NCBI RefSeq assembly: GCF_001866075.3 | Contig: NZ_CP063356.1 | Coordinates: 3,896,164 to 3,960,163 of the forward strand | Direction: 5' to 3' | From: Anaerobacillus isosaccharinicus | GTDB lineage: Bacteria > Bacillota > Bacilli > Bacillales > Anaerobacillaceae | Length of the DNA stretch: 64,000 nucleotides | In this document: piece by piece, positions 8,558-41,749 of the stretch | How the letters are laid out: every line of letters starts with the position of its first letter | How positions within the stretch are numbered: the first letter of the stretch is position 1 | Program-made: the position numbers and the translations under genes | The notes under the pieces: generated by a model | The model's input: only the letters and a program-made list of their open reading frames with translations | What the model was told of the DNA's origin: nothing | Database searches by the model: none

Positions 8558-8594
8558 TGATCAAAGTTCATATTTCTTAACTTCAATTATATTT

Positions 8595-8775
8595 GAAGTG
8601 ATAGAGGTGCAAAAACCATTAGTACAAATTTTGAGGAGAGTGAGCTCCGTTGATAGTTTGGAAAGGGGAATTTGCCGAAGTAACTTGTTACTCATAAAAC
8701 TTGTTACTGGGCCTGTATTGAATAAATGCAGGACTGTCGTATAGTTATAAGACTATATGGAGGGCTATCTTACGC
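8595..8775 (+). promoter_or_regulatory. Lysine riboswitch (L box)
   Basis: The order of conserved L-box blocks is present: AGAGGTGC (8603-8610), GAGGAGAG, TTTGGAAAGGGGAATTTGCC (8657-8676), CTGGGCCT (8707-8714), AGGACTGTC (8730-8738) and GGAGGGCTATC (8759-8769). Lysine binding in this class normally stabilises the aptamer and lets the downstream terminator form. A terminator hairpin follows at 8801 and dapA begins at 8932, so the switch should turn dapA off when lysine is abundant. Confidence 0.93.
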
Positions 8776-8836: not shown

Positions 8837-8931
8837 AACTCGGTTGGATCTTGTGATTTAGCTCTATTCACGAACTTACGTCGTCTTATTTTTGAATGGC
8901 GAACAAAACTTACTGAATAGAGGTGTGTTCC

Positions 8932-9819
8932 ATGAATTTTGGACATTTATTAACGGCAATGGTGACACCATTTGACCAAAATGGAAAAATTGACTTTGAA
9001 GCTACTCAAAGCTTAGTGAATCATTTAATTGATAACGGTAATGATGGGATTGTTGTTGCAGGAACTACGGGTGAATCCCCTACCCTAACTACAACAGAAA
9101 AAGCAGAGTTGTTTAAATTTGTTGTTGAGGTTGTTGCTGGTCGTGTTTCTGTTATTGCGGGTACAGGAACAAATAGTACAGCCTCATCCATTGAATTAAC
9201 AGAGATTGCAACTAAATCAGGTGTTGATGGAATTATGCTTGTCGCACCATATTATAATAAACCAAATCAAGAAGGTCTTTACCTCCATTTCAAAACAATT
9301 GCAGATTCTACTCATTTACCTGTTATGCTCTACAACATTCCAGGTCGTAGTGCAGTTAATATCCAAGTGGAAACAATCGTTCGTCTCTCACAAGTTACCA
9401 ATATCGTCTGTGTAAAAGAAGCTAGTGGAGACTTAGATGCTATGGCTGATATTATTGAAAATACTGCGGATGATTTCTTGGTATATAGTGGTGATGATGG
9501 TCTTACTCTACCGGTATTAGCTATTGGTGGACATGGTGTTGTTTCGGTATCGGCTCATGTAATTGGCAAGGAAATGAAGGAAATGATTACGACTTTCCAA
9601 AACGGCGACTCGAAAAAAGCTGCTTCACTTCATCGAAAGCTTTTACCGATTATGAAGACAATGTTTATTGCTCCTAATCCGACGCCTGTAAAAGCAGCTC
9701 TAGAAATGATTGGACAAAACGTAGGTTCAGTCCGTTTACCTCTAGTCCCACTGACAGAAACAGAATTAGAGATAGTTAATGGCGCTATGAGAGGCAAATT
9801 GTTATCTCCAGTAATATAA
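8932..9819 (+). CDS. dapA: 4-hydroxy-tetrahydrodipicolinate synthase
   Basis: DapA (295 residues, normal length) condenses pyruvate with aspartate semialdehyde, the first committed step to lysine and dipicolinate. The Schiff-base lysine lies in VCVKEASGDL (about K163), the N-terminal block MVTPFDQNGKIDF and the motif GTTGESPTLT are typical, and YYNKPNQEGLY carries the catalytic tyrosine. I chose ATG at 8932 over the in-frame GTG at 8923, since AGAGGTG lies at the right distance for the ATG. It is controlled by the lysine riboswitch and ends in its own terminator. Confidence 0.96.
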   Translation: MNFGHLLTAMVTPFDQNGKIDFEATQSLVNHLIDNGNDGIVVAGTTGESPTLTTTEKAELFKFVVEVVAGRVSVIAGTGTNSTASSIELTEIATKSGVDGIMLVAPYYNKPNQEGLYLHFKTIADSTHLPVMLYNIPGRSAVNIQVETIVRLSQVTNIVCVKEASGDLDAMADIIENTADDFLVYSGDDGLTLPVLAIGGHGVVSVSAHVIGKEMKEMITTFQNGDSKKAASLHRKLLPIMKTMFIAPNPTPVKAALEMIGQNVGSVRLPLVPLTETELEIVNGAMRGKLLSPVI

Positions 9820-40116: not shown

Positions 40117-40295
40117 TATATAATATATCTCCTTAGTCGGCTTATTTTAATAGTTAGTCTACTTTCCTCTATTATTATAGTATTATTATATCAAATTATC
40201 TTAATTTTAAAAATATAAAAGAATTGAATATTTCTTTTTAGCTAAAATTAAAAGTAACTGTTAAAGAGGAGGATCTAGTGAAATCATAATAAAGA

Positions 40296-40315
40296 ACGTA
40301 ACCAAATGGCTACGT
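40296..40315 (-). terminator. Terminator after the GrdB-like selenoprotein gene
   Basis: Arms ACGTAaCCA and TGGcTACGT with a 2-nt loop; on the minus strand followed by TTCTTTATT. Confidence 0.6.
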
Positions 40316-40323
40316 CCCTTCAT

Positions 40324-41031
40324 TTATTTCTTATAACTTGGAAAATCAACTTCATGAATATTACCAGGTTCTTGTCTTTTTGTTAATTCTTCTAGGGCTA
40401 CTTGCAATACTTTCATTTGGGTGTTCTTATCATTTGGTTTTCCTAAAGAATGACCAAATCTAAAGCCAATTGGATGGATCGCCCGTGGTGGCCTCATTAA
40501 ACTTGATTGTTCGACATCAAGGGTAATGAGCGAAGTTGGGATTCCTTGTGCTTCAATTCCACGCTGCACTGTAACTACAGTGCGATGACAAAGTGGTCAG
40601 CCAGCAGTTAATAATACTGCGTCTGCTTTTGATCGGACAACTTCTTTGACGAGAGCTGGAATTGTTTCTTTATTAATTTTATTTAACCGCATTGAGTAGC
40701 CCATCATCGTTAAATGTTTTTCAGCTACTCCACCAAGATCCCCATCCTCAACCATTTCCCTTAGTCGATCAATCGGAAAAACACAGTTGATATCTTCTTT
40801 AGGATAGTCTGTATTATAATGGTCTTTTGGTGCTGAATGGGTAACTGTTAAGTCTTTTGGATCAACATCGCCAGGGATAATGCGAAATGTTGCATCGCCT
40901 TCTGCTGGATCAGTATTATAAGGCTCTTGCTCATTTAAATGAACGCCCGATGTTGAAACGATCATGATGGTCATCTCATGCAATGGTTTATCGTTAGGTG
41001 TATATGGTATTGCTTTTCGAGAAAGTTCCAT
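40324..41031 (-). CDS. GrdB/PrdB-like selenoprotein with in-frame UGA (Sec145)
   Basis: Read through a single UGA at 40599-40597, the frame encodes 235 residues of the glycine/betaine/sarcosine/D-proline reductase selenoprotein B family, shorter than true GrdB (about 435). The UGA gives VLLTAG-U-PLCHRTV, i.e. the Sec-x-x-Cys redox motif in the place expected for the family. A SECIS hairpin follows the UGA. The ATG at 41031 is 7 nt after AAGGAG. It follows the seleno-peroxiredoxin by 26 nt, so both form one operon. Likely a thiol/selenol redox enzyme; true amino acid reductase activity is unlikely without the other subunits. Confidence 0.9.
40566..40583 (-). promoter_or_regulatory. Bacterial SECIS hairpin of the GrdB-like gene
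   Basis: On the minus strand, GCACTGT-AGTT-ACAGTGC forms a perfect 7-bp stem with a 4-nt loop, starting 13 nt after the UGA. The loop G lies 22 nt downstream of the UGA, inside the known 16-37 nt range, and is in one of the first two loop positions, as SelB recognition needs. Confidence 0.85.
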
Positions 41032-41057
41032 ACACATTCTCCTTATTCACTAATGTT

Positions 41058-41558
41058 TTATAACTTACGTAACACATCGAACAATTCTTCGTTGTCTGGT
41101 TGGATTCCAATTGGATGAACATCAATAAATTGGATAATTCCTTCTTTATCAATGATCATTAATGCACGTTCCGAAGCCCCGTATGCAGGCTCTTCAGGGT
41201 TCGTACGAAGAACACCATACTTTTCGGATACCTCTCCATGCGGATAAAAATCTGCACATAAAGGGTAAGAAAGTCCTCCAATTGATTTTGCCCATGCATT
41301 ATGACTATGAACACTATCGACACTTATACCCAAGACCTGGGTATCAAACTCCTCAAAACGAGAAAGATCATCCTCGTAGGAAGGCATTTGCGCGCCTCAG
41401 ACTGGTGTCCAATCTAGAGGGTAAAAGCATAAAAATACATTTTTGTCGCCGCGAAATTCACTTAACGTAACTTTGCGGTCACCGTGAGCTAATAACGTAA
41501 AGTCAGGTGCTTGATCTCCAACTTTTAATGTTTTGGTTTCAAGAGCTCCTTTAGGCAT
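41058..41558 (-). CDS. prxU: Seleno-peroxiredoxin with in-frame UGA at the peroxidatic position (Sec54)
   Basis: Read through the UGA at 41399-41397, the frame gives a complete 166-residue peroxiredoxin. The active site reads FYPLDWTPV-U-GAQMPSYE, so Sec54 stands for the peroxidatic cysteine of the TxxC motif; MPKGALETKTLKVGDQAPDF is the usual N-terminus. Only two Cys remain (C43, C101). It would reduce peroxides using a thiol donor. Known relatives are PrxU of Eubacterium acidaminophilum and related anaerobes. GGGAG lies 7 nt before the ATG. A possible SECIS (TTTCTC-GTTTT-GAGGAG at 41349-41365) is 31 nt after the UGA and weaker than that of the next gene. Confidence 0.9.
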
Positions 41559-41721
41559 AGCAATTCTCCCTTCTATTTCTTTTTTTCAACACTTTATATT
41601 ATCGCCATCTTTATTAGAAATAATCTCTTATTGTTAAAAAATTGCAGTTTTTTATTTACTACTCAAGATGGTCCCGAAATTTACCTGGTTACTTACATTA
41701 TTCGATAAGCTATATAAAAAA

Positions 41722-41742
41722 GAGCATGGATGCACCATGCCC
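41722..41742 (-). terminator. Terminator after the CvfC-like gene
   Basis: On the minus strand GCATGG-tgcat-CCATGC is followed by TCTTTTTT. Confidence 0.75.
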
Positions 41743-41749
41743 CTATCAG

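Follow-up and report, generated by a model that had tools for sequence, protein, structure and literature searches.

The 64,000-nucleotide stretch of the Anaerobacillus isosaccharinicus genome analysed here (the window) contains, on its minus strand, two adjacent genes with in-frame UGA codons that together form an apparently distinct two-gene unit. The downstream gene (40324..41031) is, almost certainly, a true and functional selenoprotein gene, and its product, judging by its sequence, is a PrdB-like member of the GRDB family that belongs to an orphan subgroup distinct from both PrdB and GrdB. The upstream gene (41058..41558) looks like a second selenoprotein gene and encodes a peroxiredoxin of the AhpC-TSA family. 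The two genes are adjacent at every window-type locus counted in relatives and in named genomes, and the two selenoproteins probably work together. The first-pass annotation of this locus was right in recognizing a selenoprotein at 40324..41031; it did not report the Sec-peroxiredoxin next to it, the constant pairing of the two genes or the orphan subgroup.

The PrdB-like gene is one open frame of 235 codons (41031..40324, minus strand) with a single in-frame TGA (40597..40599), which falls in the motif LLTAGUPLCHR. The ATG at 41031 is the better spaced start, with an AAGGAG at a distance of 7 nt, and yields a protein of 235 aa with Sec at position 145 (AGUPLCHR); the mechanically predicted ORF starts at 41037 and gives 237 aa, with Sec as residue 147 (U147 below). 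A protein search of 101 genomes produced 19 matches in 16 genomes, eight of them close (90-100% identity, the window included) and the other 11 only 31-37% identical; exactly one in-frame TGA was present in 18 of the 19, and the remaining sequence had none and carried Cys. The closest named matches were from Anaerobacillus arseniciselenatis (94% identity) and an Anaerobacillus metagenome genome (93%). The UGA was also present at 27 of 27 loci in the collection of named genomes and was retained in 32 distinct related coding sequences. Cys occupies the Sec column in L061 and L118, both true PrdB (L061 scores 391 bits against PrdB), and no Cys form at this site was seen in the window clade. Protein-level constraint is present on both sides of the UGA: over 12 pairwise comparisons, pN was 0.013-0.173 upstream of the codon and 0.022-0.157 downstream, whereas pS was 0.52-0.82, which is near saturation and makes dN/dS unreliable in these comparisons.

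The genome, a single contig of 5.23 Mb rated 100% complete, encodes the full selenocysteine machinery, with selA (554 bits), selB (357 bits) and selD (402 bits) all over their cutoffs and two identical tRNA-Sec genes, also over cutoff. The initial description of this frame, including its coordinates, its 235 codons and its U-P-L-C motif, agreed with the sequence on re-reading, and its claim that the UGA is a true Sec codon was borne out by two of the checks that it had proposed, namely, the search for selA, selB, selC and selD, all four of which are present, and the alignment for Cys or Sec at the site, where the UGA is kept in all eight close orthologs. The two tRNA-Sec genes (L001, L002; 1494-1593), 137 kb apart, match perfectly over 100 bp, and identity over an alignment of 291 bp is 95%. 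Downstream of one is a gene that, by eye, resembles a tyrosine recombinase, and downstream of the other a fragment whose beginning resembles that gene. The selD gene (L017, G000:C1:3731765-3732694) has an in-frame TGA of its own, in GKGGUGCK, and so looks like a selenoprotein gene too.

Behind the UGA of the PrdB-like gene lies a hairpin (40566..40583, minus strand), GCACUGU-AGUU-ACAGUGC, with a 7-bp stem and an AGUU loop, which starts at base 17 counting from the U of UGA; both its sequence and the position of its loop G, 22 nt past the UGA, are as originally described. Excerpts of PMC13188914 give the rules for a bacterial SECIS element (bSECIS) as a loop of 3-9 nt, a stem of 4-16 bp, a G in the first two loop positions, a distance of 16-37 nt from the UGA and a minimum free energy (MFE) at or below -7.5 kcal/mol, and the hairpin, with an MFE of -12.3, satisfies the rules set out there. 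Its energy alone is unremarkable: the z-score is -1.20, 25 of 200 shuffles fold equally well, 63 of 500 synonymous resamplings are no less stable, and the segment ranks 10th among 222 segments of the gene; for two orthologs (L048, L049), the 48-nt segment has a minimum-energy fold other than the simple hairpin. What is decisive for the hairpin against chance is the cross-species comparison and not the folding energy. In a set of 32 distinct coding sequences, from 33 taken, invariant amino acids other than Met, Trp and Sec account for 135 codons, of which only five are the same codon in every sequence, and the consecutive hairpin codons ACU GUA GUU ACA are four of these five; outside the six hairpin codons, single-codon use drops to 1 of 129, and to none of 57 at four-fold sites. 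The single variable stem pair is C-G in 28, U-G in one and U-A in one of 30 distinct segments. It is the conserved UGA, the frozen hairpin codons, the constraint on both sides and the complete machinery that support the reading of this UGA as a Sec codon.

The protein passes the cutoff of the Pfam model for GRDB (PF07355; 29.0 bits against 22); its best NCBIfam match, TIGR04483 (PrdB), reaches 152.1 bits against a cutoff of 300, and the broader selenoprotein B model TIGR01918 reaches 44.8 against 65.45. Thus, the GrdB/PrdB-like identity assigned in the first-pass annotation holds at the level of the family. So does its remark that partner subunits are missing: no PrdA was matched in the complete single-contig genome by a search that matched all six true-PrdB genomes (four over cutoff), and no GrdA by one that matched six of eight other genomes. 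A search of the genome for PF09338, run without a positive control, also gave no match. When 398 genomes of the phylum were searched for PrdB, 123 matched, 18 of them above the cutoff, and the present genome's two GRDB-type proteins scored 197 and 146 bits.

In a tree of 53 rows, the window clade had 100/100 support, and all 31 orphan rows formed one group (100/97) to the exclusion of true PrdB and GrdB; the tree has several long branches, with a program warning on their joins, and the support of true PrdB itself is weak (69/45). The motifs differ between the groups. HGG(Y/F)D and MGGGG were present in 19 of 19 true PrdB rows, H(S/A)APK-x-HYN and MGY in all 33 rows of the window clade, and H-x-H-(Y/F)-(D/N) in 17 of the 18 other orphan rows (the exception is L060). 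Thirteen residues, including H67, D82, U147, C150, E162 and R185, are invariant in a family sample of 15, so that the catalytic core is kept and the surroundings, which are partly common to true PrdB and GrdB, are changed. With PrdB, the window protein shares its size, a near full-length alignment, Sec-x-x-Cys-His-Arg and the conserved H, D, E and R, and it differs in having H-x5-HYN, MGY and UPLC in place of HGGYD, MGGGG and UGTC, as well as in its score, clade and lack of a detected PrdA. With GrdB of glycine, sarcosine and betaine reductases, the homology covers the C-terminal half and Sec-x-x-Cys; the window protein has no counterpart of the N-terminal half, nor does it have the third Cys of UxxCxxC. 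No solved structure of a relative was identified: the best phmmer match (E 0.00097) and the best match of the family profile (E 0.0085) were two different designed proteins, the former a repeat protein, and we take both to be due to chance.

A second orphan PrdB-like selenoprotein gene, with the motif PGUYICHQ, is present in the same genome (G000:C1:2480440-2481099; L050, L129), near genes that, by eye, are rhodanese-like and TVP38-like. Further orphan clades of PrdB-like selenoproteins, of the UPxC(Q/N)Q type, were observed in other genomes of the order and phylum (L131-L137, L056-L058), and no partner was identified for these.

The gene directly upstream of the PrdB-like gene (41058..41558, minus strand; 166 aa) matches PF00578 with 125.4 bits against a cutoff of 26. 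Peroxiredoxins carry their catalytic residue in the motif P-x3-T-x2-(C/U), and the peroxidatic site of this protein has Sec54, in WTPVUGAQ (Sec codon 41397-41399). The sequence PLDWTPVU is present in all 26 aligned peroxiredoxin rows, in which there is no conserved Cys besides the Sec; the peroxiredoxins of both Ammoniphilus loci (L107, L108), and of eight loci of a second operon type described below, contain no cysteine at all. Because there is no conserved resolving cysteine, this peroxiredoxin appears to be of the 1-Sec type. As in the PrdB-like gene, there are fixed codons behind the UGA, and in eight orthologs only one to 10 of 500 synonymous resamplings of the 48-nt segment were as low as the actual sequence.

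The two genes are separated by 26 nt (41032..41057) that hold the AAGGAG ribosome-binding site of the PrdB-like gene. A terminator-like hairpin of 13 pairs follows the PrdB-like gene (40291..40320, minus strand), and another, of 10 pairs, lies between the peroxiredoxin gene and the HEAT-repeat gene upstream (41720..41744, minus strand); the region has four such sites on both strands together, against a shuffle mean of 1.1 (sd 1.2). Because of the upstream hairpin, the two selenoprotein genes look like a transcription unit of their own. We considered and rejected an operon shared with the HEAT/Nfu_N, DUF1028 and DUF1284 genes that lie upstream, since this hairpin intervenes; among the loci examined, these neighbours occur only in the genus of the window. 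The PrdB-like and peroxiredoxin genes adjoin each other at eight of eight window-type loci in relatives and at 27 of 27 loci in named genomes, two sets that overlap in some genomes, and the adjacent pair extends to Ammoniphilus and Aneurinibacillus. Across 28 loci (two from the same genome), these two genes are the only ones that recur, every other neighbour family being found at five loci or fewer once a seven-locus cluster that is an overlap of the peroxiredoxin gene in another frame is set aside. Locus L094 has a second PrdB-like gene, which is preceded by part of another match to the peroxiredoxin.

Upstream of the peroxiredoxin gene, in the window (about 41560-41640) and at 30 other loci, we observed a promoter-like block, roughly GGNTAA, 13-14 nt, GGGAATAAT, which most of the 31 upstream stretches show when aligned and which is weak in the window. 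It resembles a sigma-B-type site, and the corresponding layout scored 9.77 against a mean of 9.04 and a maximum of 9.29 in 20 shuffles; we do not rely on it, the best match in the window overlapping the ribosome-binding site. PerR and Fur sites, sought upstream at 31 loci with consensus sequences, scored like shuffles, L108 alone having a PerR-like site with two mismatches. As to mobile elements, the PrdB-like gene had no match in phages, and none of five pattern matches in viral contigs was a relative; 24 plasmid records matched, all at less than 60% identity, and among the 20 plasmid matches listed, 15 had a named feature, prdB in every case. Elsewhere in the window, a lysine riboswitch aptamer (8594-8775, plus strand; 124.8 bits) lies ahead of the ORF 8923-9819.

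A search for the peroxiredoxin in 397 genomes of the order (E up to 1e-45) located 22 places in 20 genomes. Fourteen of these adjoin a window-type PrdB-like gene. The other eight (L076-L083) adjoin a glutaredoxin-thioredoxin reductase (Grx-TrxR) fusion gene, with the peroxiredoxin behind the fusion, and represent the second operon type; the domains of one member of the fusion family are a glutaredoxin domain and a thioredoxin-reductase-like flavoprotein. In a tree of 26 peroxiredoxins, a single branch with 100/100 support splits the 18 rows from gene pairs from the eight rows from fusion loci. Seven of the 12 genomes that have only the pair lack a match spanning the Grx-TrxR fusion, and the other five, two of which are only 80% and 62% complete, have a full, partial or interrupted Grx-TrxR gene elsewhere.

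The fixed pairing, together with the different neighbour in the sister clade, suggests that the PrdB-like protein is the reductant of the 1-Sec peroxiredoxin, a mechanism that we propose tentatively and to which, as a whole, we would give a little less than an even chance. Sec54 of the peroxiredoxin would reduce peroxide and thereby be converted to the selenenic acid; its regeneration would depend on a thiol or selenol from another molecule, a conserved resolving cysteine being absent from the protein. The U-x-x-C pair of the PrdB-like protein might supply this reduction, with its selenol attacking the oxidized peroxiredoxin and Cys150 resolving the bond, so that an intramolecular selenenylsulfide would form in the PrdB-like protein, to be reset by a cellular thiol reductant, thioredoxin or similar. 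The PrdB-like protein would then act in the role that is presumably filled by the Grx-TrxR fusion beside the sister peroxiredoxin clade. The invariance of U147 and C150 in the sample of 15 counts in favor of this mechanism, as does the lack of a spanning Grx-TrxR match in seven of the 12 pair-only genomes. Counting against it, the five pair-only genomes with Grx-TrxR elsewhere imply that neither partner strictly substitutes for the other; the scores of PerR-type sites are no better than those of shuffles; and other orphan PrdB-like genes, one of them in the same genome, are not beside this peroxiredoxin in the stretches examined. The conserved H, D, E and R and the very strong conservation also speak against the mechanism, being suggestive of an enzyme with a small substrate of its own and not of a simple shuttle. 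A bolder reading, to which we would give somewhat less than an even chance, is that the pair makes up a peroxidase of two selenoproteins: a subunit of an amino-acid reductase (GRDB family), re-tooled and left without its partners, would be dedicated to donating electrons, through its selenol, to a 1-Sec peroxiredoxin that has no resolving cysteine. It would be a peroxiredoxin reductase of a new kind, distinct from those of the thioredoxin, AhpD and AhpF types.

The chief rival to the peroxiredoxin-reductase mechanism, which we consider doubtful and yet a serious possibility, is that the PrdB-like protein reduces some small molecule, the peroxiredoxin being ancillary and either protecting the readily oxidized selenol or removing peroxide that arises from or alongside the reaction. 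The set of invariant residues would suit such an enzyme, as would the second histidine, H73, and the MGY that replace the HGGYD and MGGGG of true PrdB, the excess of pS over pN and the orphan relatives that have no adjoining peroxiredoxin; furthermore, a Sec-peroxiredoxin has reportedly been described in Eubacterium acidaminophilum, a glycine-reductase organism. However, in the 28 loci the pair has no recurrent neighbour that encodes a transporter or another enzyme, and none of the results suggests a substrate. It appears improbable that both selenoproteins handle selenium or sulfur, for example, by reducing selenite-derived or persulfide species, and serve neither peroxide removal nor catabolism. 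The rhodanese-like and TVP38-like membrane genes near the sister orphan of the same genome (named by eye, with no family scan) and the TVP38-like neighbour, also by eye, in five of the six loci of that orphan's clade are compatible with this possibility, and Anaerobacillus species reduce selenate according to excerpts of PMC11944866; the window pair, however, has no recurrent neighbours of these families, and many carriers of the pair are Neobacillus, Mesobacillus and other Bacillus-like genera.

That the protein serves as the catalytic subunit in a reductase of D-proline, glycine, betaine or sarcosine, with its partner subunit elsewhere in the genome, is very unlikely and already largely refuted: PrdB is indeed the best NCBIfam match, but the score is half the PrdB cutoff, the tree places the window clade with the other orphans, the two motifs of true PrdB are missing, and neither PrdA nor GrdA was matched by searches whose positive controls worked, so membership in D-proline or glycine reductase was rejected. 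Finally, we rejected as negligible the possibility that the UGA arose by nonsense mutation or genuinely ends translation, with the two pieces representing a decaying gene or separate genes. Three relatives (L044, L047, L048) do end the same gene with TGA as an ordinary stop, and the hairpin energy alone is not exceptional, but the orthologs examined have UGA at this very codon, the hairpin codons are frozen, constraint is present on both sides and the Sec machinery is complete.

The selenoprotein class and the GRDB family are already known; what appears to be new is the orphan clade with changed motifs and the, apparently undescribed, two-selenoprotein operon. PrdB-type selenoproteins are abundant: excerpts of PMC2398784 count 235 Sec sequences assigned to PrdB in the Global Ocean Sampling set. 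In excerpts of reports including PMC13188914, PMC9312934, PMC2398784, PMC1794560, PMC5029168 and PMC11944866, no reaction was found for a PrdB-like protein without PrdA, and among the matches listed from the open-licence literature, no title dealt with a pair of Sec-peroxiredoxin and PrdB-like protein. Like the known pairs, grdA-grdB and prdB-prdC, the present unit consists of two adjacent selenoprotein genes with a supposed shared redox role, but the combination of peroxiredoxin and PrdB is missing from the neighbouring selenoprotein pairs that excerpts of PMC2398784 and PMC13188914 name. The fixed pairing and the different neighbour in the sister clade provide a concrete, testable redox partner for one orphan PrdB-like protein, and suggest that the label D-proline reductase is misleading for such proteins.

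With the Sec-peroxiredoxins (PF00578, TxxU type; PrxU, NF040737), the partner protein shares the Sec at the peroxidatic site, and it differs from PrxU in its score (74.6 bits against a cutoff of 270), in having no resolving cysteine and in the PrdB-like gene beside it. In the AhpC/AhpF and AhpC/AhpD systems, as here, a peroxiredoxin is encoded beside a dedicated thiol partner; the Grx-TrxR fusion of the sister clade matches the AhpF and thioredoxin reductase models, below their cutoffs. In the unit described here, by contrast, the partner is neither a thioredoxin-fold nor an AhpD-type protein but a member of the GRDB family.
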